Below, piece after piece: positions 26,255-55,339 of a DNA stretch of 64,000 nt. The stretch spans positions 1,585,001-1,649,000 of the forward strand of contig NZ_CAJRAF010000001.1 in assembly GCF_907164905.1 (NCBI RefSeq). The letters are read 5' to 3'. Within the stretch, counting starts at the first letter, position 1. Each line of letters starts with the position of its first letter. The position numbers and the translations under genes were made by a program. Under the pieces are notes generated by a model. That model worked only from the letters and a program-made list of their open reading frames with translations. It was not told the DNA's origin and did not search any database. This stretch comes from Dyadobacter sp. CECT 9275 (lineage in GTDB: Bacteria; Bacteroidota; Bacteroidia; Cytophagales; Spirosomataceae).

Positions 26255-27361
26255 TTAATGTGCTCGTCCGGTTTCTACGTAGGTATCTTCATCACCGGTT
26301 GGTTTCCCCTGCCACCAGGATGCCAGTATTGAGCCTGTAATGTTCATCAACGGCCCGAACACGGCTGGGGCAAGACCTACCGTAGCCATTTTTCCCATTT
26401 CTTTCGCGATACCGGATGCAAGTCCGCCATTTTGCATACCCACCTCAATAGCGATGGTACGGCAGTCGCGCTCGCTCATTTTGAATAGCCGTCCCGACCA
26501 GTAACCCAGTGTATAGCCCGAGAGATTGTGAATCAGTACGAGGAGCAACAAAGTGGGGCCGATGGTCAGCAGGCTGTCGCGGCCGGCAGCGGTGATGATC
26601 ACGATAATGAAGGCAATTCCGCCCATGGATACGAGCGGCATGGCGTTGTCCAGCCATTTGGCCTTTCCGCTGAATAACTTATTGAATATCAGCCCTGCTC
26701 CGATAGGTATGATGACCATTTTTACGATATCCCACATCATGTGGAGGGTATCTATTTTGACAAATGCACCAGCCAGAAGGCTCATCAGTACCGGCGTTAC
26801 AATAGGCGCAAGCATGGTAGAAATGGCGGTGATGGTAATGGAAAGTGCCAGGTTTGCTTTGGCAAGATAGGATATCACATTGGATGCCATACCGTTAGGA
26901 GAACAGCCAATCAGGATTATTCCTGCTGCAATTTCAGGCGGAAAACCACTCAGATTGGCGAGTGTGTACCCGATACTGGGCATAATAATAAAATGGCTTA
27001 TCACTCCGATCAATACACCTTTTGGCATTTTAACAACGCCTACAAAATCCTGGAAACTCATGGAAGTTCCCATTCCGAACATGATGAGCTGGATCAGGGG
27101 GGTGATCAGCACAGCCAGTTTGAAACCGTTGAACTGCTGAAAATACTGGGGATAATAGAGGGCAGTGGTTACGGCAGCAAAAATAATGGTGGTATAGGTA
27201 AAGCCCTTGAGCTTTTCAAAACCACGAAAACTGATGGCCAGCGCCAGGAAAAACAGGATGAAAAAAGGCCCTGCCTGAGGAAGGCTGCCGGTTAAACCCA
27301 GGTAGAGTGCAATGAGGAGGCAAACGGCCGCTATACCTGACAATAGCTTGTAAATATTCAT
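26255..27361 (-). CDS. BASS-family (bile acid:sodium symporter-like) transporter
   Basis: About 368 residues from Met at 27361 (MNIYKLLSGIAAVCLLIALY). A polytopic membrane protein with about ten helices. The family signature segments are GVLIGVISHFIIMPSIGYTLA, IAAGIILIGCSPNGMASNVI with the discontinuous helix motif, and EVGMQNGGLASGIA in the second half, both at the sodium and substrate sites. Members import bile acids, pyruvate, pantothenate or other organic anions with sodium. It is the last gene of module A, separated from the RraA-like gene by a terminator hairpin, so it probably has its own promoter. An organic-acid product of the exported pathway is a reasonable substrate guess only. 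Confidence 0.88.
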   Translation of the reverse strand: MNIYKLLSGIAAVCLLIALYLGLTGSLPQAGPFFILFFLALAISFRGFEKLKGFTYTTIIFAAVTTALYYPQYFQQFNGFKLAVLITPLIQLIMFGMGTSMSFQDFVGVVKMPKGVLIGVISHFIIMPSIGYTLANLSGFPPEIAAGIILIGCSPNGMASNVISYLAKANLALSITITAISTMLAPIVTPVLMSLLAGAFVKIDTLHMMWDIVKMVIIPIGAGLIFNKLFSGKAKWLDNAMPLVSMGGIAFIIVIITAAGRDSLLTIGPTLLLLVLIHNLSGYTLGYWSGRLFKMSERDCRTIAIEVGMQNGGLASGIAKEMGKMATVGLAPAVFGPLMNITGSILASWWQGKPTGDEDTYVETGRAH

Positions 27362-27450
27362 GTTTTTATTTTTATTATACAATTTTAAAAAGGGCATAGT
27401 TTATTATTTCAATGACTTTTGGCAGATACCAGTCTGTCAGTGTTTAGAAA

Positions 27451-27526
27451 AAGATAGCAGATTAAGGCCGCTTTATTGCTGAAAAAGCAGGAACAGAAGC
27501 TGCCTTACTTAATAAACTGCTATCTT
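27451..27526 (-). terminator. large terminator hairpin after the RraA-like gene
   Basis: On the minus strand 10-bp perfect outer arms (AAGATAGCAG and CTGCTATCTT) are extended inward by an imperfect ATTAAGGC/GCCTTA-CTTAAT pairing. The hairpin is followed by CTTTTTC. It starts 11 nt after the RraA-like stop and precedes the BASS gene by 90 nt. Confidence 0.8.
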
Positions 27527-27537
27527 CCTTCAGAAAA

Positions 27538-28467
27538 TTACCAGGTTCTTTTTTTCATGTATTCGTCCAGTTCCGAACGTTTCATGGGGATTTCCTTAGG
27601 ATTTTTATCCAGCCATTTCAGGAAATCTTCTTTCAGTTTGTCGGTCCACTGGCTGTCAATCTGGCCAGGAGTATATTTCCCTTCTTTGAGCATCTGAATA
27701 CCAAATTTGTCACGGATAGCGATGAATTCGGCGGTAAGTACCACTTTTTCTACCAAATGAGCGGGAATGAAAATCACGCCCTCTCTTTTTGCGAGCACCA
27801 CATCACCGGGAAGTACGATGGCCCTGCCGATGCGGATGGGTGTGTTCAGTCCTGTAAGTACGACGTCTTTCAGGTAGGAAGGATCCCAGTCTCTCACAAA
27901 AGCATTGAAACCTTCTATTTTGGACAGACCTTCCAGGTCACGGGAGGAGGCATCGAAAATGACACCGGTTCCGGTTTTTGCAAAAATAGAGTTGCCAAGG
28001 TTATCGCCGATAAGGGTTCCCTGGGCAATCTTCCCGAAACCATCCGCCACATATACATCACCTTTGGAGAGCTGGTCAATGGGCCAGGAATTGGTGTTGC
28101 CAATGCGGCCTGCTTTTTGGCCACGTTCTTTAATGTTTTTTTCAATATCCGGACGAGAGGGCATGAACTGCGCGGTAAGTGCACGCCCTGCAATGGGGAC
28201 ATCATTATGAATCATTTTCCAGTTTCCGTCGAACTGGCAGTTGTAACCTTCATTCTGCAGGACAACCCAGGCTTCTTCAATGGCAATTTCTTTCACGCGG
28301 CGGATCATGTCGTCCGATACTCTGGGGCGTCCGTCAGGAAAACGTTCTCCTTTCCATTCTGAAGTAAGGAAGATCAGTTCTTCTTTGGAAATGGTCTGTG
28401 CCCTGACAACGGCCAGGCTACCTATGAGACAGAGAGAGGTAAGCAGACTGAAAACTTTCAATTTCAT
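27538..28467 (-). CDS. exported RraA-like / HMG-CHA aldolase family protein
   Basis: 309 residues with a Sec signal (MKLKVFSLLTSLCLIGSLAVVRAQ). The core (about 85-250) is the RraA/dimethylmenaquinone-methyltransferase-like fold: KGDVYVADGFG, LGNSIFAKTGTGVIFDASSRD with the Arg-Asp that binds keto acid and metal, and IVLPGDVVLAKREGVIFIPAHL, the usual closing signature. Family enzymes with these residues are class II pyruvate aldolases for 4-hydroxy-2-oxo acids; E. coli RraA lost that activity and binds RNase E. Export is unusual, and an RNase E role is impossible outside the cytoplasm, so an aldolase or decarboxylase role is favoured. The extra N- and C-terminal parts (each about 60 residues) are not in the minimal family. 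Follows the S15-type hydrolase by about 170 nt. Confidence 0.82.
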   Translation of the reverse strand: MKLKVFSLLTSLCLIGSLAVVRAQTISKEELIFLTSEWKGERFPDGRPRVSDDMIRRVKEIAIEEAWVVLQNEGYNCQFDGNWKMIHNDVPIAGRALTAQFMPSRPDIEKNIKERGQKAGRIGNTNSWPIDQLSKGDVYVADGFGKIAQGTLIGDNLGNSIFAKTGTGVIFDASSRDLEGLSKIEGFNAFVRDWDPSYLKDVVLTGLNTPIRIGRAIVLPGDVVLAKREGVIFIPAHLVEKVVLTAEFIAIRDKFGIQMLKEGKYTPGQIDSQWTDKLKEDFLKWLDKNPKEIPMKRSELDEYMKKRTW

Positions 28468-28641: not shown

Positions 28642-30450
28642 TCAGTTTCCGGACAGGTCGGTAACAACAGGTAAAATAATACGGCTTAACTTAGGCCCGC
28701 CATGATGGACGGTCTGCTGTGCAATGCGTGTTTTGGTACTGCTTCCAAGAGGCTCGCCGGTATTTGGATTTCTGTCAAACTGCGGGAAATTACTGGAAGT
28801 GATATCCACCCGTATGCGGTGGCCCGGCAAAAATGCATTGGCTGTTCCGGTCAGTTCAATTTCGTACTCATAAACCTGATTGGGTGTGAGCAGTTTCATC
28901 TTATCCAGTCCCTCACGGAATTTCGCCCTGATGATCCCTTCTGAAACAGGCATGGCATAACCATTCGGATACACATCCACCAGCTTGATCATCCAGTCGG
29001 TATCCGGGCCATCTGTTGCCGCATGGAGTTTCATTTTTACAGGACCGGCTATGGTGATCGGTTTTTCGAGAAATTCACTTGTATAAACCAATACATCCTG
29101 GCGTTGTTCCAGCGTGCGCTGGTCACGGGGGCCGGAAGATGTAGGCGTACCGCAGCAGTTGTTTCCTCCCATGGTGGGTACCGGGTTTTCGGGGTCGTAA
29201 CGGTATGTGTCTGTTGCAGCTTTTTCTGGTTTGGTAAAAGATAACGTACCTTCTCCGCGTACCGAATTGGCAGCACCTTTTGCACCCAGATACAGCTCCT
29301 GATATTTTGTTCCTGGAATGGGCCAGTCGGTCTCGCCGCGCCATTTGTTGATACCCATGTAAAAAAGTTTCACAGGTTTCTCCTTATCCAATCCGTTTTT
29401 GATACCTTTCAGGTGATAATCAAAGAAGCCGAGTTCCGTCTCAAATTGTTCAACATAAGCGGCAGGAGTGAAATCCACTCCGCCAAATGACTGAGAAGGA
29501 CCATGTCCCCACGGGCCTATGATCATCCGTGCATTGGCTCTTGCCTCGGGTGTTGCACCTTTGTTTTTCATACCCACATATCCGTTGATCGTTCCCATCA
29601 CGAAGATGTCAAACCAGCCACCTGAGGTATATACGGGTACCTTAATTTTGTTAAAACGTTCTTCGTCACTAATGGATTTCCAGTAATCGTCATAACTCTC
29701 ATGTTTGATCCAGTCGCGGTAATGCTGCACCACAGAACCTGCTCCCCTCATATCCATATCTTTAAGTGGCAGGTGCATCAGTACATTTTCATATTTCAAT
29801 TCTTCCGGCATAAAGGCTTCGGTATGCCAGGTCTGAGGAAGCATAATACGGTTGGGCATCCGTGCCACGCCCCAGCCGTAGTTGAAACTCAGGCGGTAGG
29901 CTCCTCCCATGGTCAGCCAGTTGGCATAAATGTTGGTGGAAGCCAAAGCCGGAAATGCAGCGGTTAAGTGCGGCGGTGCCATGCTGGCGGCCTGCCATTG
30001 GTTGTGGCCCAGGTAACTTCCTCCCTGTGTACCAACCTTTCCGTTCGAGAATGGCTGCGCCGCTGCCCATTCAATCGTGTCGTAACCGTCATTGGCTTCA
30101 TCCCTGAAAGGCTCCCATTTGCCATCGCTTTCGTAACGGCCACGCACATCCTGAACAATCACAACATAACCGCGCTGTGCGAACTTGGTCATGGTTTGGT
30201 GGTGAACGCCTTCGCGCTGCGATCCGTAGGGTGTCCTGGTGATGATGGTTGGATACTTTCCAGGCGCCGCAGGCATGTACAGATCGGCGTAAAGGATGAC
30301 CCCGTCGCGCATGGGAATTGCCCGGTGTCTTTCAATTTTTATTTCATTGAACTGGTTCGCATAGGCAAGCGCATTCGAAATAAAAAGCGCGCTGGCAAGC
30401 AGGAGTATTCGAAGTAAACCGAAAAATTTTGGATGAGGTTGAGTATTCAT
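28642..30450 (-). CDS. exported CocE/NonD-type (peptidase S15) hydrolase
   Basis: About 602 residues from Met at 30450, with a signal peptide after a short N-region (FFGLLRILLLASALFISNALA). Alpha/beta-hydrolase domain of the X-Pro dipeptidyl-peptidase/cocaine-esterase family: RDGVILYADLYMP, YVVIVQDVRGRYESDG and the nucleophile S145 in GTQGGSYLGHNQ. A probable catalytic His is in MIIGPWGHGPSQ. The C-terminal jelly-roll domain (about 375-600) includes TDWMIKLVDVYPNGYA. Substrates of the family are proline peptides, esters and acylated beta-lactams or amino acids, so the bond cut here is unclear. It starts 32 nt after amidohydrolase A and is surely co-transcribed with it. Confidence 0.88.
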   Translation of the reverse strand: MNTQPHPKFFGLLRILLLASALFISNALAYANQFNEIKIERHRAIPMRDGVILYADLYMPAAPGKYPTIITRTPYGSQREGVHHQTMTKFAQRGYVVIVQDVRGRYESDGKWEPFRDEANDGYDTIEWAAAQPFSNGKVGTQGGSYLGHNQWQAASMAPPHLTAAFPALASTNIYANWLTMGGAYRLSFNYGWGVARMPNRIMLPQTWHTEAFMPEELKYENVLMHLPLKDMDMRGAGSVVQHYRDWIKHESYDDYWKSISDEERFNKIKVPVYTSGGWFDIFVMGTINGYVGMKNKGATPEARANARMIIGPWGHGPSQSFGGVDFTPAAYVEQFETELGFFDYHLKGIKNGLDKEKPVKLFYMGINKWRGETDWPIPGTKYQELYLGAKGAANSVRGEGTLSFTKPEKAATDTYRYDPENPVPTMGGNNCCGTPTSSGPRDQRTLEQRQDVLVYTSEFLEKPITIAGPVKMKLHAATDGPDTDWMIKLVDVYPNGYAMPVSEGIIRAKFREGLDKMKLLTPNQVYEYEIELTGTANAFLPGHRIRVDITSSNFPQFDRNPNTGEPLGSSTKTRIAQQTVHHGGPKLSRIILPVVTDLSGN

Positions 30451-30482
30451 GCGTGGTGGATTTAGGATCAAAGGATAAAAAG

Positions 30483-31757
30483 CTACCTGCGTGAAATTAC
30501 GAGGGGGTTGGTAAGACCATTCAGGTCATACACGACTCTTCCCGCGCGAATCGTCACTTCGGCTTCCAGTTTTTGTTTGCCTTGTATTTTGGTACCGGTG
30601 TAGTCCCAGAACCCGAAGGTGCCGGTATCATTCAGCTGGAACTTGCCATCGATCAGTCTCAGAACGGCAACATCCGCCCGGGAGCCGACAGAAAGATTAC
30701 CGAGCTGTTCGCGGTGGATCGCCTGCGCGGGTGCCCAGGTACTGGCTTTGATCACACTTGGCAGGTCCATACCCATGGCCAGAAACTTGGACATTACATT
30801 CAGCATGTCCTTCATGGCATTATTCATGCTTCCGGTGTGGATATCGGTACTGATGGTGTTAGGGTAAAATCCGCTTTTAACAGCGGGGATGGCCTGGGAA
30901 AAGGCAAAACTGATCCCACCGTAACCGACATCGAAAAGGATACCTTTTTTGCGGGCTTCGTATACAAACGGTTTGATTTTGCCGGTGGCTACATCCAATA
31001 TGGGCTCACGGCTCGAGAGCTGCCCAAAGCAATGCGTAAAGATATCTCCCGGCCGCAGGTGTTTCATGAAGAGTTCTTCAATGGGAAGCACAGGCGTACT
31101 TCCTCCGAAATCGATCATGACGGGGATATTGGCGAGTTTACCCGCCTCAACGGCCTTGTCGGTGGGTGTCCAGTTGTATCCGTTATAGTGCGCAAGTTTT
31201 ACGCCGACCACATACTCCGGATTTTCCATAGCCACTTTGGCAGTAGCAGCCGCATCCATATCATCCACATTCTGTTCGTAGGTACCGCCCCGCATGCCTT
31301 CGCCCACAATGTTGAGAAATGCAAGTACCCGGGTTTTTGAAATATCAATGGTTTGTTTTTTGAAATCGGGAAAAGATTTCCAGCCGGAACAACCTGCATC
31401 CACAACCGTAGTGACGCCGGTACGGAAAGTGAAGCCGTCTGGCGGTAAGGCATTGGGGCCGTTGCTGTACGTCTGATCCATTTTGGTTCCAAAGAAATTG
31501 TGCGAATGAATGTCAATAAGCCCGGGGGTAACGTACAGGCCTTTGGCATTAACAACCTGCCTGCCTTCTTTTGGGTCGATATTTTTGGCAACGAGCTTAA
31601 TGGTATCGCCGTTCATGGCTACATCCAGCAGTGCATTGATATTGTTTTTAGGATCAATAACACGGCCGCCCTTGATAACAACACTATATTTCTGCGCAGC
31701 GGCAACCTGGATACCTAGTGCAAAGACACTCAGCAAAACGATCAGCTTTTTCTTCAT
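30483..31757 (-). CDS. exported amidohydrolase/deacetylase, COG3964 type (copy A)
   Basis: 424 residues with a Sec signal (MKKKLIVLLSVFALGIQVAAAQ). Amidohydrolase-superfamily barrel with candidate metal ligands H84 and H86 (LIDIHSHNF), K187 (GVKLAH, probably carboxylated), H242 (DIFTHCF) and the catalytic D305 (TISTDIHTGS). It resembles the group long mis-called dihydroorotase. Studied members of that group hydrolyse small esters or N-acyl groups. A close paralogue lies in module B (43669-44913); the first 240 residues align without gaps and the active-site residues match. The long 5' gap to susD (317 nt) carries two hairpins, so a separate promoter with the S15 hydrolase is likely. The real substrate is unknown. 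Confidence 0.87.
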   Translation of the reverse strand: MKKKLIVLLSVFALGIQVAAAQKYSVVIKGGRVIDPKNNINALLDVAMNGDTIKLVAKNIDPKEGRQVVNAKGLYVTPGLIDIHSHNFFGTKMDQTYSNGPNALPPDGFTFRTGVTTVVDAGCSGWKSFPDFKKQTIDISKTRVLAFLNIVGEGMRGGTYEQNVDDMDAAATAKVAMENPEYVVGVKLAHYNGYNWTPTDKAVEAGKLANIPVMIDFGGSTPVLPIEELFMKHLRPGDIFTHCFGQLSSREPILDVATGKIKPFVYEARKKGILFDVGYGGISFAFSQAIPAVKSGFYPNTISTDIHTGSMNNAMKDMLNVMSKFLAMGMDLPSVIKASTWAPAQAIHREQLGNLSVGSRADVAVLRLIDGKFQLNDTGTFGFWDYTGTKIQGKQKLEAEVTIRAGRVVYDLNGLTNPLVISRR

Positions 31758-32074: not shown

Positions 32075-33619
32075 TCACTTATCCCACCATACTATGCTGG
32101 AAAGCGTGTTGGTGCCACCTTGTCTGGTGCGTGCTTCGTAGAAATTCGTCTGATTGTAAGTTTCTTCCGAATCCGGGATCACAAAACGGGTGGGGATTTT
32201 ACCTCCCGTGAGGTTACCAGGGTAGTTGGTCGGGATAAGCTTGGGATAACCGGTACGTCTCCAGTTGGAGAATATCTCGTATTCATCCTCCAGGAAAAGA
32301 GATACCCATTTCTGCGTGTGGATCTGCTCCATCTGCTGCTCAACCGTGCCGGCCGCATTGTAAGGGTTGACGTCCAGGTACGCATTCACTTTAGCATCTG
32401 ATATGGTAGCCGCCGCTCCGAACAGGGCCCATTGTCCCATTCCTGCTTTTACAGCCTTGTCGTAGGAATCCTTCGCAGTGGCTCCCGCATACCATCCTCT
32501 CAAAGTTGCTTCTGCTAGTAAAAGATTGGTTTCAGCATTTCCAAAAACAAGCAGAGGGGCGTTGTATTTCAGGAGCGTATTGGGGTTTGGCTCCGAAAAG
32601 CTGTTGAAGTTTTCGGGTACGTTGTTGTAAAGGGCATTGGGCATACCCAACTGGAGCGCTGTGCTGGTATCCGCAACAAAACTGCTTCCGGAAGGTATCC
32701 ACACAATGGAGATTACATTCAGACGCGGATCTTTGGTTCCTTTCAGGTGGTCAATCAGGGTTTTTGCAAATTTACCACCCTCGATATTCTGCCCGCCGGG
32801 TGTGATGTAATCAGTACTTAACAAACCACTGGCAATGAAATTCCGGCTTGCGGTCTGGGTTCCGTCCACATAGGCGATCACGGCGCGGTCAGCATCTGCC
32901 GTAATAATGCCACCTGCAATTGCTTTTTCTACCCATGTTTTTGCCATGGTTGGATCAACCTGTGTCAGGCGCATGCCCAGGCGGAGCATAAGTGAATAAG
33001 CAAATTTCTTCCATTTGGTTACGTCTCCGCCGTAAATGAGATCGGCATTGGCAAAAGTGGGCTTCGTCGTATCAAAAGCCTTGGCTGCTTCATCCAGTTC
33101 TTTCAGCATGTCAGCATAAATAACTTGCTGTGTATCGTACTTTGGAGCATAATTTTTGTCCGCGAGCGCTTTGCCGGCATCAAAATAGGGGATGTCACCA
33201 TAAAGATCCGTCAGGCGATGGAACAGGTATGCCTTCCAGATACGCGCTACAGACAATTTGTTAACATCGGCAGGGTTAACTGAAACGGCTTCAATTACCT
33301 GAGCCAACTCAATGACGGCCCCTGTGTAAGCACCCCAGTTTCCGGTTGAATAACCGTAGTTAAAGTACTTGTCTCCCGCGGCAGGAACCTCTTTACAGGT
33401 AGCGAAGTGCTGCATGGACTGGCCAATGGTGAGGTAGGCAGCCCCGGTATAGTTTACGCTGACGGCATCCAGCTGGGCTTTTGTGAAAAGAAACCCTGGC
33501 ACTACTTCAGAGGATTTATTGGGGTCCTTGTTCATTTCCACAAAACCATTGTCGCAGGAAGGTAACATCAGGGCCAGAGGAGCTGCAAATAATATTTTTT
33601 GAATCAGATTTTTCATCAT
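32075..33619 (-). CDS. SusD/RagB-like outer membrane lipoprotein (module A)
   Basis: 514 residues. A lipoprotein signal ends at C22 (ALMLPSCDNG). The surface-exposed helical TPR-like protein closes over its SusC partner and delivers substrate. Features of the SusD-like_2 subfamily: FVEMNKDPNKSSE at the start, KWKKFAYSLMLRLGMRLTQVDP, and LFLEDEYEIFSNWRRTGYPKL near the end, followed by the NTLSSIVWWDK terminus shared with the module B SusD. It lies 16 nt after susC. This subfamily is often tied to peptides or other non-glycan nutrients; no polysaccharide-degrading gene is near, which fits. Confidence 0.93.
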   Translation of the reverse strand: MMKNLIQKILFAAPLALMLPSCDNGFVEMNKDPNKSSEVVPGFLFTKAQLDAVSVNYTGAAYLTIGQSMQHFATCKEVPAAGDKYFNYGYSTGNWGAYTGAVIELAQVIEAVSVNPADVNKLSVARIWKAYLFHRLTDLYGDIPYFDAGKALADKNYAPKYDTQQVIYADMLKELDEAAKAFDTTKPTFANADLIYGGDVTKWKKFAYSLMLRLGMRLTQVDPTMAKTWVEKAIAGGIITADADRAVIAYVDGTQTASRNFIASGLLSTDYITPGGQNIEGGKFAKTLIDHLKGTKDPRLNVISIVWIPSGSSFVADTSTALQLGMPNALYNNVPENFNSFSEPNPNTLLKYNAPLLVFGNAETNLLLAEATLRGWYAGATAKDSYDKAVKAGMGQWALFGAAATISDAKVNAYLDVNPYNAAGTVEQQMEQIHTQKWVSLFLEDEYEIFSNWRRTGYPKLIPTNYPGNLTGGKIPTRFVIPDSEETYNQTNFYEARTRQGGTNTLSSIVWWDK

Positions 33620-39344: not shown

Positions 39345-39803
39345 CTAAATATAAGCGATACAATCGATCTCCACCAGAGAATCGCCCGGTACCCCGCCAT
39401 ACACCGCGACGGTGGTACGGCATGGTGGCTTGCTTCCGAAGCGGCCTTTGTAAGCTTCGTTCATTTTTTTGTAATCGTTCAGGTCATGAAGGAAAACGCT
39501 GCATTTTAAAACCTTTTCCATGGAAGATCCCGCCTTGATCAGCTCTTTTTCAAGCTCGTCCAGTACGTGTTTGGTATGTGCGGTAATATCACCTTCGAAG
39601 TGAGCACCTTTTCCTGCAACAAAAACCAGGTTGTTAAATTTGGTATGGCCTGAGAAAAGAGGCACATCCTGATACATTTCCACATCGCCTACCTCTTTTT
39701 CCGGAGCAGGATCAGCAATGGCTTTGGATGCAGCGCCAAGCCCTGCAACACCAGCTACCGAAGCAAATAATTTTTTAAGGATAGATCGTCTTTCTGTCTT
39801 CAT
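39345..39803 (-). CDS. Tat-exported RidA/YjgF-family protein
   Basis: 152 residues. The N-terminus has a twin-arginine motif (ERRSILKKLF) followed by a hydrophobic stretch ending ASKAIADPA, so export through Tat is predicted. The RidA core retains R129 (PPCRTTVAV) and E145 (LVEIDCIA), the residues that in active RidA hold the imino-acid carboxylate and activate water. Active members hydrolyse 2-aminoacrylate and related imines or enamines released by PLP enzymes. RidA proteins are normally cytosolic, and a PLP enzyme with the same export route is encoded in this module (44960-46183). Last gene of the dehydrogenase operon, 35 nt after the preceding gene. Confidence 0.87.
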   Translation of the reverse strand: MKTERRSILKKLFASVAGVAGLGAASKAIADPAPEKEVGDVEMYQDVPLFSGHTKFNNLVFVAGKGAHFEGDITAHTKHVLDELEKELIKAGSSMEKVLKCSVFLHDLNDYKKMNEAYKGRFGSKPPCRTTVAVYGGVPGDSLVEIDCIAYI

Positions 39804-46396: not shown

Positions 46397-47974
46397 TTAG
46401 TTTTTATCCCACCAAAGTGGCGTACTTGCCTTGTCTGGCCCGCCCAAAAGGGAAACAGCACCTTCCATAGCCGCAGCATTGTTGGTATACTCCTGCTGCA
46501 GGAAAGGAATTCTTCTGGGAAAACGGGTTGCAGGTACATCGGTATTAACAGAGTTAACCACCGTATATAGTTTAGGCAAACGCGTTCTGCGGAATTCGGC
46601 CCAGGCTTCTATGCCGTCAGGATACAAGGCCAGCCATTTCTGAGTGGCGATCTGCTCTCTTTGAATAGCCTCCGTGGCGGCCCATTTCACGGTAATACCG
46701 GATAGTGCAGGAGAATTCTGCTGGTCGGCAGGTGCCACCGGTGTATGGTTACTTGCGATATAATCATTTACCACCTGGCCTGTAATACCCCATCCTTCCA
46801 TCGAAGCCTGGATACCTTTTTCATAGAATTCGCGGGCCGTTCCGGTTTCTGTATTCCAGCCGTTCAGGGCTGCTTCTGCCAGCAGGAAATAGGCTTCTGA
46901 AGTGTGCATAATGTCTTGTGCTACGGCCAGCTGCCTGTCCCATGCCGAACCTTTTCCTGTGTTTCTTATCCAGCGGGTACCTATGTTGGAGTTGTAATCA
47001 TTGGTATTGAGTGTCTGGGTAAGCTCCGAGGAGCCAAGCCCGTTGCGCAGGCCTTCATAGGTTTTGGTGGTGAAAGCCGGTTGGAAATAGATACCGATCC
47101 GAGGGTCCTCAAAGCCTTTCAGTACCGACTCCATGGCTGCGCTCATGCGAAACTCGCCCCAGCCGGAAATGAAGGAAAGTCCGTTGTAATCACTCCCGAT
47201 TAGATTTTTGGTCATCATGGCGTTGTCTGCCAGGGTGGCTAAAAGTCCTCCGGCAATGGCTGCCTCAGCTTCTGTTTTTGCTTTGGCGGGATCAGCCTTT
47301 GAGATACGCAAAGCCAGGCGAAGCCGAAGGGTGTTGGCGAATTTTATCCATTTTGAAACATTTCCCGCGTAAACGATGTCGTAGTTACCATAAGGCGTTT
47401 CCGAGGTTTTACCTGCCAGAATGGTTGTTGCTTCCGCCAGCCGTTTGAAAAAATCGTCGTAGATATCCTTCTGAGCATCATATTTTACAGTGCTCGGCGC
47501 AATAGCCGCTTCGAAATAGGGAATGGGACCGTAATAATCCGTTACACGGTGAAAAGCGTAGACCCACCAGATACTTGCCAGTGCATATTGGGAAGAGGAA
47601 GGGGCTACCTCATCAAAAAGTTTCCTCAACTGGGGCGCAACCTGTGTGTAGATGGGATTCCAGTGGCTGTCGATCCAGGTGGGGTGCATATAGTACCTGT
47701 CGGACTGGAAGTTAGGTGTTGTGGTTGCATAGTACTGCGCATATAAATCGGCGAACAGATTTTGAGCTGTCTGGTAATTACCAGCCGAGTAGGATGCCTG
47801 TTGCTGGGCACGGGCAAATAAATAGGGAAGTTCGGCGTCGGTGAGTTCGGTGAGTGCTGTTTTACTGGTATTAATCTCGTCAAAATCTCCGGTACATCCT
47901 GCCATTACGCCTGCTACTCCCGCCAATACAGTTACTGCCGCAATTCTGATATATATTTTCGTGACTAATTCCAT
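46397..47974 (-). CDS. SusD/RagB-like outer membrane lipoprotein (module B)
   Basis: 525 residues with a lipoprotein signal ending at C27 (AGVMAGCTGD). SusD-like_2 subfamily, as in module A: FDEINTSKTALTELTDAELPYLF, VSKWIKFANTLRLRLALRISKADPAKAK, KWLALYPDGIEAWAEFRRTRLPKL and a similar terminus (STPLWWDKN). Binds the nutrient at the cell surface with its SusC partner, 49 nt upstream. Together with module A this is the second non-glycan-like SusCD pair in 16 kb. Confidence 0.93.
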   Translation of the reverse strand: MELVTKIYIRIAAVTVLAGVAGVMAGCTGDFDEINTSKTALTELTDAELPYLFARAQQQASYSAGNYQTAQNLFADLYAQYYATTTPNFQSDRYYMHPTWIDSHWNPIYTQVAPQLRKLFDEVAPSSSQYALASIWWVYAFHRVTDYYGPIPYFEAAIAPSTVKYDAQKDIYDDFFKRLAEATTILAGKTSETPYGNYDIVYAGNVSKWIKFANTLRLRLALRISKADPAKAKTEAEAAIAGGLLATLADNAMMTKNLIGSDYNGLSFISGWGEFRMSAAMESVLKGFEDPRIGIYFQPAFTTKTYEGLRNGLGSSELTQTLNTNDYNSNIGTRWIRNTGKGSAWDRQLAVAQDIMHTSEAYFLLAEAALNGWNTETGTAREFYEKGIQASMEGWGITGQVVNDYIASNHTPVAPADQQNSPALSGITVKWAATEAIQREQIATQKWLALYPDGIEAWAEFRRTRLPKLYTVVNSVNTDVPATRFPRRIPFLQQEYTNNAAAMEGAVSLLGGPDKASTPLWWDKN

Positions 47975-48023: not shown

Positions 48024-51000
48024 CTAAAATCCTAGTTTTAAATTGAGTCCAACCGTTCTGGTGGATGGCAATGTTCCGTATTCCGCCCCCTGGTAATTGG
48101 CAGAACCCAGGTTAACGTCCGGATCAAACGGCAGTTTACGTTTTTTCAGACCGGGAATATCCATCCTGGCGCTGCCTCTGTAAAAGAAGAACAGGTTGCG
48201 GGCTGTAAGTGACAGCCGGGCGTTTTTAATAAACAAACAGGCCGGCGTTGGAATATTATATCCCAACGAAAGCTCTCTTAGTCTCACGTTGGTAGTATTA
48301 TACGCAAAGAAACCACCCCATGTATAACGTCCCTGAGATACCGTTTGCCAGAATGTCTCGGCGGTGATGGGTACTGTGTTCTGTTCTGAGGTAACAACGC
48401 CATCGTCGGTTTCCACTACGGCCGGAAGTATCCAGCCTCCTTCGCGGTTTTCTTGTGTATACTTCGCCGTTCCGTCATAGGCCAGGTTACCATCTGTACC
48501 TGAAACCATTGTTCCGCCCACCCGTCCGTCGATCAGGAAGGTAAGCGTAAATTTCTTATAGGCGAAGGTGTTAGTGAAACCGAAGGTGAACTTAGGGTTG
48601 AAATTTCCTACAATGTTGTCAAATGAGGTCTGCACCGGAAGCCCCTTTGAGTTTACTACGTAATGGCCGTTGGCGTCGGTCTTCCAGCCATAGGCCTGCA
48701 GGTCGCCATACGATTTGCCTTCGCGTACGATAGCCGTAGTGGTGCGGGTATTTCCGCCCAGGGTCGCCGTTTTGATACTCGGGTGCAGCTTGATTACTTT
48801 GTTTACATTCCGGGCAAAATTGAGGGAGGCGTCCCAGGTAAATTTCCTTCCCCTGAGCGGAGAGGCCGACAAGGTGAGTTCAAAACCGTGGTTGTTGATC
48901 TTTCCCGCATTAACATACTGGCTGGTGAAACCGGTCGGACGGGCGAGGTTCAGTGTGAGCAACTGGTTGACCGTGTTACTGTTGTAATAGGTAAAGTCGA
49001 TGCCCAGGCGCCTGCCGAACATGCGGAGGTCCAAACCGAATTCCGTTGAGGAAGAAATTTCAGGTTTGAGGTTTTCCGCAGGTTTGGTGGTATTTCTGGA
49101 AATGAACCCTCCGGTACCGCCTTGCGAGAAATTGTAGGTTTGTGAAAGGCTATATGGTGATGCATCGTTGCCTACCTGTGCCCATGATCCCCTCAGTTTC
49201 AGAAAGCTGATCCAGGAGGGAAGCTCGAATGCTTCGGAAAGAATGGCATTCGCGCCGAAAGAGGAATAGATATAGGAGTAAGGCTTCGGAAGTGTGGACG
49301 ACCAATCGTTACGTATCGACGCGTCCAAAGTGATGAAATCACGCAAGGAAACGGATGCCGTACCGAAAACATACTGAAGTTTCTTTTCGGAGAAACCTGT
49401 GATCTGCGTTAAAGCGGAGGCAAAGGAAAGATCAAAACGGTTCGGAACCGAAAGTCCGGTTGTGCTGGCTCCTACCTGTGAGAATCGGTTATAGGTTGAA
49501 CCCGCCCCAAAGTTGTACGTCACCGTGAGGTCGTTTCCGATGTTATTATGGCCAGAAAGGATCAGGTCCATGTTTCTTTCCAGCTGCTCACCGGTGTAGT
49601 CCGAAAATGAACCACCGGTACCTGCAAACAACAGCGTACCGGCAGCGTAACCGAAATTGTAGCGGTCGGCGTACCAGTCGTAACTGATCCGGCCCTGCAC
49701 ATTGAGCCAGTCGGTGAGGTTGTACCTGGCTGACCCCAGGACGATGACCCGATTCCTTTTTTCTGAAGCAAAAGTTTTGTTCAGCGTCCAGTAGGGGTTC
49801 ATGTAAATACTCGAGCTGGTCCAGTAGGTAGGCTGTCCGTTTTCATCCTGATAGGTATTGTAAACATTATTCAGGTCCACACTGCGAGGAACCTTGTAGA
49901 GGTTCATGGTTACGGAGCTTTCCTCACCGGAGCGTGGTTTGTTTTCAATACTCTGATTGGTATAGGTAACTTTGGCATCTGTTGAAAAACGCTTGCTGAT
50001 TTGTGTATTTAGCCGAAGGTTCATGCTGTGGCGCATAAGCTGGTTGTTCGGCAGGATGCCCTGGTTGTAATTATTGGTATAGGACAGGTAACTCTGTACC
50101 TTGTCGGTACCGGCCGAAATTCCAATGGAGTTGTTAGTTGCCACCGCATCACGAAAAAAATCCCTGATGTTATCGGGATAGGTAGTGGCCTCGGCACCCC
50201 AGCTATATGGTGAGTTGGAACTGGAAATGCCTCCAGCACCCTGCCCGAATTGATTCTGCAGGCGGGGTAATAAAAATGGTGTTTCAACCGAAACACCTGA
50301 ATTGATATCGGCAGAAATTTTTCCGGCCTTGCCTTTTTTTGTTGTGATCATGATCACACCGTTGGCTGCACGGCTGCCATACAGTGCAGAAGCGGCCGGT
50401 CCTTTCAGTATGTTCAGTGATTCAATATCGTCCGGGTTGAAGTTGTTGGCCCCGTCACTGCCATTGATACCCCCGAAATCTCCGGTAACCTGACTGCGTA
50501 CCGTGTTGTCGACAGGTACTCCGTCAATGACGAACAGCGCGTTGTTATTACCTGTAATGGAACGATTACCGCGCAGGATCACGCGGGTGGCAGAGCCCGG
50601 GCCCGAAGAACTTTGGGTGATACCGATCCCGGCAATCTTGCCCGAAAGTGTATTGACGAAATTGGGATCCCTTACGTCCGTCAGCTGTTTCCCGTCTATT
50701 TGCTGGGTTGCATAGGTAAGTGTTTTTGCGTTACGCTCAATTCCCAGAGCGGTTACCACTACTTCCCCAAGCTGTTTCACATCTTCGTTTAATACCACAT
50801 CAACAACATGGCGGTTCTCTACGGCAATTTCCCGGGTAGTGTATCCAATGGATGAAAAGATCAGGACAGCATTGTCATCAGGAATGGCCATTGTGAAATT
50901 TCCGTTACCGTCCGTTGAGGTTCCCCGGTTTATTCCTTTGATCACAATGTTGGTTCCCGGAACGGCTGAGCCGGTAGCATCCTTCACGGTGCCATTTATT

Positions 51001-51443
51001 TCCCTGGTAATATGCTGCTGCGCTGCTGATGGAACCGAAACTGGCTGCGGAGCCTGGCCGGTGGCTCCAGAGGCCGGTTTGCTGCTGATGATAATATTGT
51101 TATTCACCTGGGTATACCCCAGGCCCGTACCGTTTAGTATCAGTTCCAAAACTTCTTTAACGGGTCTTTTTTCGAGAGATACAGATACCCTTTTCTTTCT
51201 ATGGATCCGCTCAATGCTGGTTATGAACTTAAAGTCGCTCTTTTTCTCAATCGCTATAAATGCATTCTGGAGAGTAACGTTATGTAGGTGTAATGAAATT
51301 TTGACATCTTCTATACTCTGCATTTTGCCGGATCCCACGGCAGTGGAACGTCCGGTACATAATACTGAAATCAATAGAAAACCAAGAGATTTCCAATGCC
51401 CGACGCAGGAACCGGATCGCTTGGTAAATGTCTGTTTTCTCAT
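48024..51443 (-). CDS. SusC/RagA TonB-dependent transporter with STN domain (module B)
   Basis: 1139 residues. Signal region in the first 40 residues, STN domain at about 48-118 (ISLHLHNVTLQNAFIAIEKKS to GYTQVNNNIIIS), carboxypeptidase-regulatory-like domain at about 150-220 (GTVKDATGSAVPGTNIVIKG), plug with the SusC signature (SRAANGVIMITTKKGKAG), and a barrel ending GLNLKLGF. It differs from the module A protein along most of the barrel, so the two probably take different ligands. The STN domain and the FecR/sigma genes upstream indicate ligand-triggered autoregulation. Ends 49 nt before susD. Confidence 0.95.
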   Translation of the reverse strand: MRKQTFTKRSGSCVGHWKSLGFLLISVLCTGRSTAVGSGKMQSIEDVKISLHLHNVTLQNAFIAIEKKSDFKFITSIERIHRKKRVSVSLEKRPVKEVLELILNGTGLGYTQVNNNIIISSKPASGATGQAPQPVSVPSAAQQHITREINGTVKDATGSAVPGTNIVIKGINRGTSTDGNGNFTMAIPDDNAVLIFSSIGYTTREIAVENRHVVDVVLNEDVKQLGEVVVTALGIERNAKTLTYATQQIDGKQLTDVRDPNFVNTLSGKIAGIGITQSSSGPGSATRVILRGNRSITGNNNALFVIDGVPVDNTVRSQVTGDFGGINGSDGANNFNPDDIESLNILKGPAASALYGSRAANGVIMITTKKGKAGKISADINSGVSVETPFLLPRLQNQFGQGAGGISSSNSPYSWGAEATTYPDNIRDFFRDAVATNNSIGISAGTDKVQSYLSYTNNYNQGILPNNQLMRHSMNLRLNTQISKRFSTDAKVTYTNQSIENKPRSGEESSVTMNLYKVPRSVDLNNVYNTYQDENGQPTYWTSSSIYMNPYWTLNKTFASEKRNRVIVLGSARYNLTDWLNVQGRISYDWYADRYNFGYAAGTLLFAGTGGSFSDYTGEQLERNMDLILSGHNNIGNDLTVTYNFGAGSTYNRFSQVGASTTGLSVPNRFDLSFASALTQITGFSEKKLQYVFGTASVSLRDFITLDASIRNDWSSTLPKPYSYIYSSFGANAILSEAFELPSWISFLKLRGSWAQVGNDASPYSLSQTYNFSQGGTGGFISRNTTKPAENLKPEISSSTEFGLDLRMFGRRLGIDFTYYNSNTVNQLLTLNLARPTGFTSQYVNAGKINNHGFELTLSASPLRGRKFTWDASLNFARNVNKVIKLHPSIKTATLGGNTRTTTAIVREGKSYGDLQAYGWKTDANGHYVVNSKGLPVQTSFDNIVGNFNPKFTFGFTNTFAYKKFTLTFLIDGRVGGTMVSGTDGNLAYDGTAKYTQENREGGWILPAVVETDDGVVTSEQNTVPITAETFWQTVSQGRYTWGGFFAYNTTNVRLRELSLGYNIPTPACLFIKNARLSLTARNLFFFYRGSARMDIPGLKKRKLPFDPDVNLGSANYQGAEYGTLPSTRTVGLNLKLGF

Positions 51444-51544: not shown

Positions 51545-52564
51545 CTAGTGGCAGACCCCGCCAGTAATAATGACTTCGTCTCCTGAGATTTTGTAATGAA
51601 AGGAATTGGATATACTCAGCAGTTTCAATATGTCCGCCAACCGGGCGTCTCTGTTAAAGCTGGCCATGACACGGCACCCTCTGAGTTTTGAATTCAAAAT
51701 CCTTATTTTTTTTCCATACCGGTCTTCCAAACTTTTTGCTACCTCTTCGTAGGTGTTGTCCCTAAAAGCAAGCGGGTCAAGTCTCCAGGCAGCAATATTA
51801 TTCAATCTAACGATGCTTGTATACGTTTGTGCATTTTGCGTGTCTACCACCAGTTTTTGCATTGGTGTAATTTTGCTTGAAGCAGGTACCGAGCCATTGA
51901 TACTCTCTGTATTTACTTCCACTTTTCCTGTCATAACGGAAACCTCTCCGTCTTTTTCATCCGGATAGGATCGCACATTGAACGAGGTACCCAATACCCG
52001 GGTGGATATCCCTTTACTCTTTACGATAAACGGTTTCTCCTTGTTTGGCTTTATTTCAAAAAAGGCCTCGCCCACCAGCGTAACCTCCCTGAGATCACCT
52101 TCAAATACTACCGGGTAGGTCAGAATACTCTTTTTATTCAGCCAAACGGTAGAGCTGTCCGGAAGTGTTATTTTTATTACATCGTAATTTCCGGTCACTT
52201 TCTGTTCAAACGCAAGCGCTGGCCTTGCAGTAATCATCCCTTTGTAAAAATTGAACGCAATGCCCAGGATCAAGATAATGCTTGCTGCCATAAACCAGGC
52301 ATTTGCGCTTATGCTCAGTATCCTGTTCTCTGCTGCCTGCTGTTTTTGCGCAGCCATCCGGGAATGGAGTACATGAAGGCCGCGTTCAAGGCTGAAACTA
52401 TTATTCTCAGGAATCTGCTGATTGCGCCATGCACTTTCCAGCTGCTGGAACAGCAGATGATTTTCCTCGTCTTCCAGCCATGTTTCCATGAAAGACATTT
52501 CGTCCAAGCTGCATTCGCCTGTTAAGTATTTGGCGATTAAAGGCCATGGTGTTTGATCTGACAT
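51545..52564 (-). CDS. FecR-family anti-sigma factor (module B)
   Basis: 339 residues: cytoplasmic part (about 1-85) with YLTGECSLDEMSFMETWLED, a membrane helix (AWFMAASIILILGIAFNFY, about 88-106), the FecR domain (ITLPDSSTVWLNKKSILTYP, GEAFFEIKPNKEKPFIV, VLGTSFNVRSY) and a DUF4974-like C-terminus (LADILKLLSISNSFHYKI). Lies 67 nt after its sigma gene and 101 nt before susC. Same role as in module A, with little sequence identity outside the FecR core. Confidence 0.93.
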   Translation of the reverse strand: MSDQTPWPLIAKYLTGECSLDEMSFMETWLEDEENHLLFQQLESAWRNQQIPENNSFSLERGLHVLHSRMAAQKQQAAENRILSISANAWFMAASIILILGIAFNFYKGMITARPALAFEQKVTGNYDVIKITLPDSSTVWLNKKSILTYPVVFEGDLREVTLVGEAFFEIKPNKEKPFIVKSKGISTRVLGTSFNVRSYPDEKDGEVSVMTGKVEVNTESINGSVPASSKITPMQKLVVDTQNAQTYTSIVRLNNIAAWRLDPLAFRDNTYEEVAKSLEDRYGKKIRILNSKLRGCRVMASFNRDARLADILKLLSISNSFHYKISGDEVIITGGVCH

Positions 52565-52631: not shown

Positions 52632-53174
52632 TTAGATAAGATGAGTTTTCTGGAGAAGCTTAAGTTGCTTCAGCGCCTTACCCATTTGATTTTCAACTGT
52701 TTTGGAAGAAAGGGAAAGGATCTCTGCAATTTCGTTGTACGTAAACCCTTCAAACCGGTTTAACTGAAATATGGCCTTTCTTTTTTGGGGAAGTATATTG
52801 ATCAGGTTGTGGATATTGGATTCAAATTCCTGGTACATGAGGGTTTCTACCGGGCCGGGCGCATTTTCAATGAGATCGTCACTCAGTTCATCCATTACAT
52901 TTTTTTCCTGTTTCATGTAATTGATGCTGGTGTGGCGGGTCGCAGTGAAAAGGTAGGATCTCAGGTTGCGGTCGATCATGAGTGATTCCCGCTTTTCCCA
53001 TATTTTGTAAAAGACATCTGCGACAATCTCTTCTGCCAGATCATTCCGGCCTGTGAAATAAGATGCAAACCGGCAAAGAGAATTATAGTACTTTTTAAAT
53101 AAAGAATCCAACGCCCTGCTGTCACCCTTTTTGATAAGGGCGATTAGAAGTAAATCATTTTGGTTATTGATCAT
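52632..53174 (-). CDS. ECF sigma-70 factor (module B)
   Basis: 180 residues. Region 2 (YYNSLCRFASYFTGRNDLAEEI, VFYKIWEKRE, NLRSYLFTATRHTSINYM) and region 4 (LPQKRKAIFQLNRFEGFTYN, IAEILSLSSKTVENQMGKAL) of the Bacteroidota FecI-like sigma factors. First gene of module B. A TTTG (53205-53208 on the complement) with 19-nt spacing to a TAAGTT-like element is visible but sits too close to the start codon to be trusted as the promoter. Confidence 0.94.
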   Translation of the reverse strand: MINNQNDLLLIALIKKGDSRALDSLFKKYYNSLCRFASYFTGRNDLAEEIVADVFYKIWEKRESLMIDRNLRSYLFTATRHTSINYMKQEKNVMDELSDDLIENAPGPVETLMYQEFESNIHNLINILPQKRKAIFQLNRFEGFTYNEIAEILSLSSKTVENQMGKALKQLKLLQKTHLI

Positions 53175-53441: not shown

Positions 53442-54551
53442 TTACTTCAGAAAGTATTGTTTCACGCATACCGGAGTAGGCACGCTGATCTCCTTTCCAG
53501 TGTACGTTAGCTGGCCGTTTCCAGTGTTCCGGTTAAAGAAAACCACATTGTTATTGTCGCGGTTGGTCACGATTGCCAGCTGGCCTTTTTCATCAATCAT
53601 GAAGTTTCGTGGATGTTTTCCATGGGTATCTGCGTGTCCGGCAACGGTAAGTTTACCGGTAGAGGAGTCCACGGCATAAATAGCCAGGCTTTCATGGCCC
53701 CGGTTGGAAGCATAAAGGAATTTGCCATCCGGTGAAAAATGAATATCTGCGGCGTAACTTTTACCAGAAAAATCAGCCGGCAGCATTGTTACTCTTTCCA
53801 GCGGTACAAGCGCCCCCGTACCCTTTACGATCTTGAAGGAATTAACCACTGATGCCAGCTCACAGGCAGAATACCCAAAGTTTCCATTCGGGTGAATGGC
53901 AAAATGCCTAGGACCATCACCGGCTTTTACTTCCGCAAATGGAACCGCCGCAGGTGTTAGCTTTCCGGTTTTCTGGTTAACGGCATATACCATAATTTTG
54001 TCAATACCGAGGTCAGACGCGTAGATATACCTGCCGTCGGCAGAGGGGATAATCGAGTGCATGTGAGGTTTTTGGCCAGGTGCTCCCTTGTCCTGGATGG
54101 TGTCGGCGAGGGCACCGATGCTGCCATCTTTTTCGAGCAGATAAACGGCCAGGTCGCCGCTTCCGTAGTTGGAAACATAAATAAAACGGCCCTTGGGATC
54201 CACGCTGACGTGGCAGGGGCCTCTTCCCTGAGCGGGTTTGTCGTTAATAACGGATAATTTTCCGGTAGTCTGGTCAATGGCATAGGCCGAAATGGTACTG
54301 TTACCTTCATTGGCCGAATACAGGTACTTTTTGTTCGGATGGAATTCAAGAAATGAAGGGCTGTTCTTATTGACGAGTACCTGTAGTTCTTTGAATGACA
54401 AATTCTTCCGGTCAAATTCGTAAACATATATCCCTTCTCCCTTCTGAGTGTAAGTACCTACGTACAGTATTTCCCGGGTTTTCTGTGCAAGTGTGGTCAT
54501 CATGCTGATGATCAGGAAACTAATTGCTAGAAATATTTTTCTGGTTATCAT
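53442..54551 (-). CDS. exported lactonase, 7-bladed propeller (Pgl/YbhE-like)
   Basis: 369 residues with a Sec signal (MITRKIFLAISFLIISMMTTLAQ). Repeated propeller blades: SPSFLEFHPNKKYLYSANEG, GRGPCHVSVDPKGRFIYVSN, GDGPRHFAIHPNGNFGYSAC, FSGKSYAADIHFSPDGKFLY and HPRNFMIDEKGQLAIVTN. Relatives such as E. coli YbhE open 6-phosphogluconolactone in the cytoplasm; this one is exported and so should act on an unphosphorylated lactone. It follows the CBM9-like gene by 44 nt, almost all of which is a 14-nt tandem repeat ending 3 nt before its start codon. Could consume lactones made by the PQQ-type dehydrogenases of module B. Confidence 0.87.
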   Translation of the reverse strand: MITRKIFLAISFLIISMMTTLAQKTREILYVGTYTQKGEGIYVYEFDRKNLSFKELQVLVNKNSPSFLEFHPNKKYLYSANEGNSTISAYAIDQTTGKLSVINDKPAQGRGPCHVSVDPKGRFIYVSNYGSGDLAVYLLEKDGSIGALADTIQDKGAPGQKPHMHSIIPSADGRYIYASDLGIDKIMVYAVNQKTGKLTPAAVPFAEVKAGDGPRHFAIHPNGNFGYSACELASVVNSFKIVKGTGALVPLERVTMLPADFSGKSYAADIHFSPDGKFLYASNRGHESLAIYAVDSSTGKLTVAGHADTHGKHPRNFMIDEKGQLAIVTNRDNNNVVFFNRNTGNGQLTYTGKEISVPTPVCVKQYFLK

Positions 54552-54554
54552 GGT

Positions 54555-54594
54555 ATTGGAATAAATAGTTTGGAATAAATAGTTTGGAATGAAT
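54555..54594. repeat. 14-nt tandem repeat in front of the lactonase start
   Basis: The unit TTTGGAATAAATAG is present about 2.8 times (54555-54594), the first copy having AT for TT at its left end and the last diverging at GAAT. It fills the 44-nt space between the CBM9-like stop and the lactonase start codon. Confidence 0.85.
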
Positions 54595-54595
54595 C

Positions 54596-55339
54596 TTATT
54601 CGAAAATCAGTGTGCCGAATTTCTGGAATTCGTGGAAACTGCCGCCGGTTTTTTGCCAGGAATAATATGCGGTTTCCTGGTCGTAATCAATACGATAGAA
54701 GTTTCCTTTCCAGCGGGTGCCTGATACCGGCACCGAAGGAATCATAGGGTTCATGAGCCTGAAGGGGATAAAAAATTCGGCTTTCCATCCTTCCACGGCT
54801 GCCATGCTTTTCCTTTGTCCGCCCTGGACACTGGTGGCATGCTGTACTTTGTTGCGTTCGTCGTAATGCCAGGGCCGCCATCCCTGGATGCCGCCTTTTA
54901 AATGAGGTACCAGGATAACCAGTTCATAATCAAGTGGTGATATTTCATATTCCAGGTAAATGGGTACGGCGGTGTCAGGCCAGAGAAAAACTTCCACAAC
55001 GTCTTCCTTGAACAGCGCACCAAAATCTTCCAAGATGGTTGCGGTCAGTTTTTTATCCTCATTATCAAATAGGAAATACATTCCTTTGTCGGAATAAAGG
55101 ATTTTGACACGTGAGGAAAACTGTCGGCCCGGCTGTTTTTGACCTGGTCCGTTCTGTACGGCGATGTTAAACCATTGCGCTGCGGACCAGTTGGGGGCTG
55201 TGCCTTCACCATTTACGGCAAAGTCGGTTGTTTTTTTGATCAGCAGGGTAGAGTCGGCGCTGCCGGCAAAAACCGGATTGCAAAAACTTCCAATTCCTAT
55301 CGCAGCAAGCGACAGTATTGAAAAAAAACTTTTAAGCAT
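54596..55339 (-). CDS. exported CBM9-like (DOMON-fold) protein
   Basis: 247 residues with a signal peptide (about 1-25). The mature part resembles the carbohydrate-binding module family 9 fold found alone in Bacteroidota: DFAVNGEGTAPNWSAAQWFNI, FSSRVKILYSDKGMYFLFDNED, FLWPDTAVPIYLEYEISPLDY and WKAEFFIPFRLMNP, finishing AYYSWQKTGGSFHEFQKFGTLIF. It probably binds a sugar or related ligand in the periplasm or at the surface; no catalytic motif is seen. First gene of the two-gene unit with the lactonase, divergent from the MHS transporter. Confidence 0.78.
   Translation of the reverse strand: MLKSFFSILSLAAIGIGSFCNPVFAGSADSTLLIKKTTDFAVNGEGTAPNWSAAQWFNIAVQNGPGQKQPGRQFSSRVKILYSDKGMYFLFDNEDKKLTATILEDFGALFKEDVVEVFLWPDTAVPIYLEYEISPLDYELVILVPHLKGGIQGWRPWHYDERNKVQHATSVQGGQRKSMAAVEGWKAEFFIPFRLMNPMIPSVPVSGTRWKGNFYRIDYDQETAYYSWQKTGGSFHEFQKFGTLIFE

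Follow-up and report, generated by a model that had tools for sequence, protein, structure and literature searches.

The window analysed here is a 64,000-nucleotide stretch of the 7.2-Mb genome of Dyadobacter sp. CECT 9275 (Bacteroidota; contig NZ_CAJRAF010000001.1, positions 1,585,001 to 1,649,000). Twenty intact genes, all on the minus strand, fill its positions 26255-55339, and two complete FecI-FecR-SusC-SusD cassettes together with a set of signal-bearing enzymes make up this island. An earlier note, made from the sequence alone, had read the whole as one 29-kb exported catabolic pathway, and the genes that it named are all present and intact. Families matched in the island are BASS/SBF, RraA-like, CocE/NonD (S15), two amidohydrolases, RidA, two GSDH-type propellers, cytochromes c, SelA/DgaE-like, lactonase and CBM9. 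On the predictions described below, the functional unit is a SelA/DgaE-like pyridoxal 5′-phosphate (PLP) enzyme exported by twin-arginine translocation (Tat), a Sec-exported amidohydrolase of the cog3964 type and a Tat-exported RidA. This core is often accompanied by an AA12-like propeller fused to cytochrome c, an RraA-like aldolase, a BASS transporter and SusCD. The genes concerned are:

26255..27397, minus strand: inner-membrane transporter of the BASS family (bile acid:Na+ symporter, PanS-like), presumed importer of the keto-acid product (PF01758, 2.8e-37)
27538..28467, minus strand: RraA-like aldolase with a Sec signal (PF03737, 2.8e-15; relatives 5X15 and 3NOJ)
30483..31757, minus strand: amidohydrolase 1 (PRK09237/cog3964 type) with a Sec signal (NF006689, 442 bits, cut-off 371)
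39345..39803, minus strand: RidA with a Tat signal (PF01042, 1.4e-19)
41855..43597, minus strand: propeller resembling AA12 and pyrroloquinoline quinone (PQQ) sugar dehydrogenases, with a fused C-terminal cytochrome c
43669..44913, minus strand: amidohydrolase 2 with a Sec signal (NF006689, 438 bits)
44960..46183, minus strand: SelA/DgaE-like PLP enzyme with a Tat signal and PLP Lys244, presumed ammonia-lyase
53442..54551, minus strand: exported seven-bladed lactonase (PF10282, 5.2e-107)

Conservation of the core was followed through the SelA-like protein in an alignment scan with one genome per species (520 stretches, 480 relatives; the best 80 were kept, making 75 loci). Its gene was found in 40 of 150 genomes of the family sample and in 8/395 of both the phylum and the class samples, and thus has a patchy but wide distribution. 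Hosts include Dyadobacter, Larkinella, Spirosoma, Chitinophagaceae, Cyclobacteriaceae, Sphingobacterium and Olivibacter, and the module is spread over several families of Bacteroidota, with one occurrence in an Acidobacterium. Among the 82 regions L072-L153, those of at least 12 kb carry the amidohydrolase in 76/77 cases and RidA in 76/77, counts that do not equal independent events because some regions overlap or share a genome (e.g. L129 and L147). Regions shorter than 12 kb (L099, L103, L113, L116 and L153) were excluded from this count; L099, L116 and L153 have neither gene. In a wider set, the amidohydrolase and RidA each occur in 34 of 35 Dyadobacter regions, and in 62/66 and 60/66 regions, respectively, from outside the genus (paralogues of CECT 9275 itself and G043, G058 and G114 being left out). 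In the acidobacterium Granulicella tundricola, the order is RraA, SelA-like, RidA, a second SelA-family protein, amidohydrolase, lactonase, a BBE-type oxidase, a hypothetical protein and GH35, with GH29 and GH125 upstream.

Export was called with a crude scripted test that looks at hydrophobic stretch, charge and cleavage-site pattern, applied to L072-L153, with family matches beginning past residue 45 excluded. The strict setting is quoted because laxer ones flagged some cytosolic proteins (2/17 cytosolic relatives and 2/8 thiolases). Under it, signals are found on 81 of 99 SelA-like proteins (4 more had no start found), on 98/100 amidohydrolases, on 81/85 RidA proteins (1 more had no start), on all 14 RraA-like proteins and on 56/62 propeller-cytochrome fusions. 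None is called in the controls (FecI 0/59, FecR 0/59, cytosolic relatives 0/17). A twin-arginine (RR) motif lies near the start of 99/99 SelA-like proteins and 82/85 RidA proteins; alone it is a weak sign, and since 17/59 FecR proteins have it too, it was counted only together with a hydrophobic stretch. All six SelA-like copies in the CECT 9275 genome start with an RR motif, and TatC is encoded there; for BASS, the expected start is a membrane helix instead of a signal. In G. tundricola, RR starts occur on the SelA-like protein, RidA, the second PLP protein and the lactonase, and a Sec start on the amidohydrolase; the SelA-like and RraA proteins are missed even by the laxer rule, and the BBE-type oxidase, as annotated, begins without a signal. 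The enzymes of the island do have the Sec- or Tat-like starts pointed out in the earlier note, and the core is a real and conserved module, exported as judged from predicted signals.

Family rank and fold both relate the SelA/DgaE-like enzyme to DgaE (DGL). DgaE families come first in NCBIfam, with scores under their cut-offs (TIGR01437, 178 of 385 bits; NF047797, 147 of 600 bits), and the predicted fold matches DGL, SelA and threonine-aldolase folds. Its best structural match and closest solved fold is Cap15 (8t7j), an oxygen-dependent PLP enzyme with a biosynthetic role. The protein could be a PLP oxidase of the Cap15 kind whose imine product is handled by RidA. We consider this improbable, given the NCBIfam ranking, a better sequence match to DGL (4.5e-33) than to Cap15 (2.6e-25), and a gene order in one relative (L145, below) that requires a keto-deoxy acid. 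The exported family nevertheless departs from DgaE, as judged by the residue roles given for DGL in PMC9529869. The DGL histidine pair is found in 0/104 exported proteins versus 5/7 other relatives, its second histidine in 1/104 versus 6/7 (one of the seven, from Natronococcus, having no determined start), and Arg301 is Arg in 1/104.

The two amidohydrolases are 61% identical to each other, and both exceed the NF006689 (PRK09237) cut-off. Amidohydrolase 2 retains His84, His86, Lys187, His242 and Asp307, which we take to be metal ligands; its strand-5 position is Asp216 instead of His. Five of the six presumed ligands are kept in at least 102/103 exported amidohydrolases, and they are common to cog3964 amidohydrolases (PRK09237; 2ICS, 2OGJ, 8JE0), which likewise pass NF006689. 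The island proteins differ from these in being exported and in the strand-5 residue, which is Asp in 98/103 and Glu in 5/103 exported proteins versus His in 6/6 cytosolic relatives. RidA passes PF01042 (70.7 versus 27.3 bits) and misses the TIGR00004 cut-off (64 versus 106 bits). It retains Arg129 and Glu145 (R and E in 87/87), presumably the catalytic R105 and E120 of the E. coli protein. Arg176, Asp177 and Asp222 of the RraA-like protein are kept in 16/16, and the BASS protein matches NF047939 at 1.3e-68, under its cut-off. The product of 41855-43597 combines an AA12-like predicted PQQ-dehydrogenase propeller fold with a cytochrome c domain found by family search; it differs from AA12 and PQQ pyranose and aldose dehydrogenases in its C-terminal cytochrome c, and its use of PQQ is putative.

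Around this core, the composition of the island changes from genome to genome. The remaining genes, and one just outside, are:

28642..30471, minus strand: exported CocE/NonD (S15) hydrolase, variable accessory (TIGR00976, 496 bits, cut-off 66)
32075..33619, minus strand: SusD-like lipoprotein 1 (PF12771, 3.7e-85)
33636..37088, minus strand: SusC-like TonB-dependent transporter 1 (TIGR04056, 651 bits, cut-off 368)
37301..38404, minus strand: FecR-type anti-sigma factor 1 (PF04773, PF16344)
38539..39147, minus strand: extracytoplasmic function (ECF) sigma factor 1, FecI type (PF08281, 1.8e-12)
39839..41317, minus strand: GSDH-like beta-propeller (propeller 1) with a Sec signal (PF07995, 5.4e-07)
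41336..41761, minus strand: exported cytochrome c (PF13442, 4.4e-14)
46397..47974, minus strand: SusD-like lipoprotein 2, variable cassette (PF12741, 2.7e-123)
48024..51443, minus strand: SusC-like transporter 2, variable cassette (TIGR04056, 631 bits)
51545..52564, minus strand: FecR-type anti-sigma factor 2 (PF04773, PF16344)
52632..53174, minus strand: ECF sigma factor 2 (PF08281, PF04542)
54596..55339, minus strand: exported CBM9-like protein (PF16011, 4.9e-06)
60682..61698, minus strand: exported SMP-30/gluconolactonase, outside the claimed island (PF08450, 5e-45)

The S15 hydrolase, which resembles cocaine esterase (3.5e-110), occurs in D. bucti (L123) and is missing from L132, L135 and the six Dyadobacter genomes examined besides that of CECT 9275. 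A SusCD cassette lies directly upstream of SelA in 14 of the 28 loci L072-L099, and five of these are only 34-41% identical to that of the window. Propeller 1, which gave no convincing or useful PDB relative by sequence, and its cytochrome c (39839-41761) vary as well. The notion of the 29 kb as a single unit was accordingly dropped. The same variability, together with the two separate sigma/anti-sigma sets, might suggest that there is no pathway at all, only two or three independent SusCD loci whose exported enzymes adjoin by chance. This is very improbable, as almost every region retains SelA, amidohydrolase and RidA as a group, and the group reappears in a second phylum. The seven-bladed lactonase is nearly confined to the genus (30/35 Dyadobacter regions versus 2/66 others), and the SMP-30/gluconolactonase lies close to the island in part of it (13/35). 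A second SelA-like gene precedes amidohydrolase 1 in L123, L131, L132 and L135, with none in the window; a remnant of it at 31758-32074 was considered and rejected, the match being an 8-residue chance one.

As to function, gene content, signal-like starts, core conservation, retained catalytic residues and the predicted folds of two members are direct observations, from which we infer every reaction, the substrate, the order of steps and their location. The island probably, though by no means surely, contains a module that breaks down an N-acylated amino-sugar acid outside the cytoplasm; N-acetyl-glucosaminate and N-acetyl-galactosaminate are the likeliest candidates. SusCD would carry N-acetylhexosamine glycosides through the outer membrane, and the AA12-like dehydrogenase-cytochrome would oxidise C1 to a lactone, passing electrons to cytochrome c. 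The lactonase would open the lactone and the amidohydrolase would strip the acyl group. The Tat-exported PLP enzyme would then act on the free 2-amino aldonate, eliminating its C3 hydroxyl and releasing an enamine, which the exported RidA would hydrolyse to ammonia and 2-keto-3-deoxy-hexonate. The RraA-like enzyme may cleave this acid to pyruvate and glyceraldehyde, and BASS may take up the keto acid.

Relatives supply the clues to the substrate. Seven same-strand genes in G976 (L170:4515-13174) encode a SelA-like protein, amidohydrolase, glycoside hydrolase family 20 (GH20), SMP-30 gluconolactonase, RraA, BASS and CBM9 (GH20, gluconolactonase, RraA and BASS assigned by Pfam). GH20 lies on the same strand and at most 2.4 kb from SelA, amidohydrolase or propeller in L140, L142, L146, L170, L172, G098 and G126, confirmed by Pfam for L140, L142, L170 and G098; the GH20 of G131, 12.5 kb off on the opposite strand, was discounted. 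In L145, 2-keto-3-deoxy-galactonate kinase (DGOK), an aldolase of the 2-keto-3-deoxy-6-phosphogluconate (KDPG) type and a galactonate-type transporter of the major facilitator superfamily (MFS) lie between two SelA-like genes with gaps of <80 bases, the only clean case of DGOK plus aldolase at the core. Because relatives add GH20, gluconolactonase or, in L145, DGOK plus aldolase, the evidence points to an N-acetyl-hexosaminate being deaminated to a 2-keto-3-deoxy-hexonate. The exported N-acyl amino-sugar pathway of the earlier note is upheld in part: the enzymes form an exported conserved module whose chemistry fits oxidation, deacylation, deamination and cleavage. The second SusCD and the S15 gene, which encodes a CocE-type esterase, are optional and weaken that reading.

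A number of observations weigh against the amino-sugar-acid reading, besides the Cap15 match. The two SusC-SusD pairs with FecI/FecR regulators are a feature shared with polysaccharide utilisation loci, and family searches found no glycoside hydrolase or polysaccharide lyase among the 20 proteins of 26255-55339. GH20 occurs in 0/35 Dyadobacter regions, and its four matches in the CECT 9275 genome all lie elsewhere than the island. A lytic polysaccharide monooxygenase (LPMO) was rejected as the aldonate source, as this genome gave no PF03067/LPMO10 match. L145 shows no RidA in its 12.7 kb, L141 has RidA and no amidohydrolase, and RraA is present in only 22/66 non-Dyadobacter regions (with short flanks). 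The CECT 9275 genome has five other SelA clusters (p1-p5): in p1, p4 and p5 SelA is joined by an amidohydrolase, which is lacking nearby in p2 and p3, and none of the five has a RidA of the window type, p1 having a PF14588-like Rid. A pqqC search gave no match in any genome, controls included, and is uninformative on PQQ synthesis. Of the 41 genomes searched for DGOK, 26 have it, rarely close to SelA, and the DGOK of G131 may belong to an adjoining galactonate operon, as in the CECT 9275 genome, where a DGOK 12 kb from p2, on the opposite strand in an apparent galactonate operon, was discounted.

The main rival for the substrate is an extracytoplasmic breakdown of N-acyl-D-amino acids or D-amino-acid peptides, with the sugar genes as neighbours from other pathways. 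The amidohydrolase would deacylate, the PLP enzyme deaminate hydroxy-D-amino acids and RidA clear the enamine. Genes suited to peptides or D-amino acids indeed stand beside some clusters: cytosolic relatives adjoin ABC transporters, an M81 peptidase with a dipeptide epimerase, and gamma-glutamyltransferase; p1 has M81 and gamma-glutamyltranspeptidase; and M19 dipeptidase homologues occur in six regions. Atu3266, a cog3964 relative, is reportedly an acetyl-(R)-mandelate esterase. Simple D-amino acids would, however, make superfluous the AA12-like dehydrogenase of 39/66 non-Dyadobacter regions, GH20 and gluconolactonase within one gene run, the DGOK and KDPG aldolase of L145, and the RraA aldolase. 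We regard this alternative as unlikely, and the amino-sugar acid remains the best supported substrate.

Where the last cleavage takes place is a separate matter. In the same exported module, the RraA-like protein could have another role, the keto-deoxy acid being imported intact by BASS or an MFS transporter and phosphorylated inside. L145 and G131 have DGOK and aldolase without RraA, in L138 and L176 a galactonate-type MFS transporter (TIGR00893, under cut-off) accompanies RraA, and the CECT 9275 genome has two DGOK genes away from the island. This variant is a serious contender, though we would sooner expect it to fail, since RraA retains its Arg and Asp residues (16/16) and its signal (14/14) and is linked to BASS, found in 16/22 non-Dyadobacter regions with RraA versus 9/44 without. 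The fuller proposal is held just as tentatively: that some Bacteroidota and Acidobacteria possess a complete unphosphorylated extracytoplasmic breakdown of N-acetylhexosamine to pyruvate, in which the enamine released by a Tat-exported PLP lyase passes to RidA, likewise exported, and periplasmic cytochromes collect the electrons. If true, PLP ammonia-lyase, RidA and RraA aldolase, regarded as cytosolic, would become one periplasmic pathway and RidA would gain an extracytoplasmic role. The SelA-like/amidohydrolase/RidA gene set, found without an assigned substrate, would be accounted for, with a prediction for proteins currently named just 'aminotransferase class V-fold' or 'amidohydrolase/deacetylase'.

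The closest described system is the ong pathway of Pseudoalteromonas prydzensis, which processes GlcNAc1A (oxidised chitin) through a deacetylase, a PLP deaminase, RidA and 2-keto-3-deoxy-gluconate (KDG) kinase (PMC9537276). Its enzymes are placed in the cytoplasm by prediction, each gene is needed for growth on GlcNAc1A, and that paper describes the function of the ong RidA as unknown. Ong and, by prediction, the island both combine an amidohydrolase-superfamily deacetylase, a PLP deaminase leading to KDG, a RidA-family partner and TonB-dependent uptake; unlike the exported module, ong is cytosolic, has the kinase instead of an exported aldolase and draws its aldonate from LPMO. OngB is a subtype V amidohydrolase (Cys/His/His; PMC12017989), whereas the presumed ligands in the island are HxH, Lys, Asp, His and Asp. 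OngC is related to the D-serine-dehydratase (PF14031) class and has fold-type III (PMC9537276), in contrast to the DGL, SelA and threonine-aldolase folds matched by the PLP enzyme of the window. A PF14031 protein lies in the G098 cluster, with a homologue in G126. The pathway logic is thus already known from ong, and the enzymes of the island differ from it in family or subtype and in their predicted export. The Salmonella D-glucosaminate pathway (DgaE, or DGL, with DgaF) shares with the SelA-like protein the fold, the PLP lysine and, on the present proposal, the route from 2-amino aldonate via a keto-deoxy acid to pyruvate; it is cytosolic, and its substrate is phosphorylated by phosphotransferase-system uptake (PMC9529869). 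The earlier statement that no such pathway is described outside the cytoplasm was not contradicted, although the same logic is published for the cytosol; among the papers listed in the literature searched, with most subscription journals outside it, none dealt with an exported RidA, a periplasmic glucosaminate pathway or this gene set.

Homologues without export signals, named in the earlier note as speaking against its reading, were found only distantly. In Alphaproteobacteria (L161 and L167), amidohydrolase, RidA and SelA-like genes stand side by side as in the island, without signals, with an ABC transporter and an IclR regulator, at about 28-36% identity and with the strand-5 His. These clusters look like the cytosolic counterpart of the exported module. 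In Enterococcus faecalis (L159:3898-7200), a MupG-family gene lies ahead of an EF_0837-type amidohydrolase and DgaE, a hint that the cytosolic version acts on an amino sugar.

Several smaller observations concern the same families. Cluster p1 (L062:13269-18611) is a SelA-amidohydrolase-propeller set beside the M81 metallopeptidase and gamma-glutamyltranspeptidase. PF14588-type Rid proteins are a recurrent addition to these clusters (20 open reading frames in 18 loci, e.g. L151:14299-15513). In some Chitinophagaceae-type genomes, two amidohydrolases are accompanied by a second, longer SelA-family protein (∼540 residues, Tat-like start, 34-38% identical; L119:12996-14594, L147:10738-12369), and the Granulicella copy is at L158:13689-15287. 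Elsewhere in CECT 9275 (C2, L156:8318-15561), a quinoprotein-like protein, DGOK (by family search), a KDPG-type aldolase, an MFS transporter and a dehydratase-like protein (by eye) form a run suggestive of galactose oxidation in the periplasm together with galactonate breakdown. Beside the island, on the same strand (20858-25396), lie genes recognised by eye as thiamine biosynthesis genes (ThiF/MoeB-rhodanese, ThiH, ThiG, two ThiE and ThiS).

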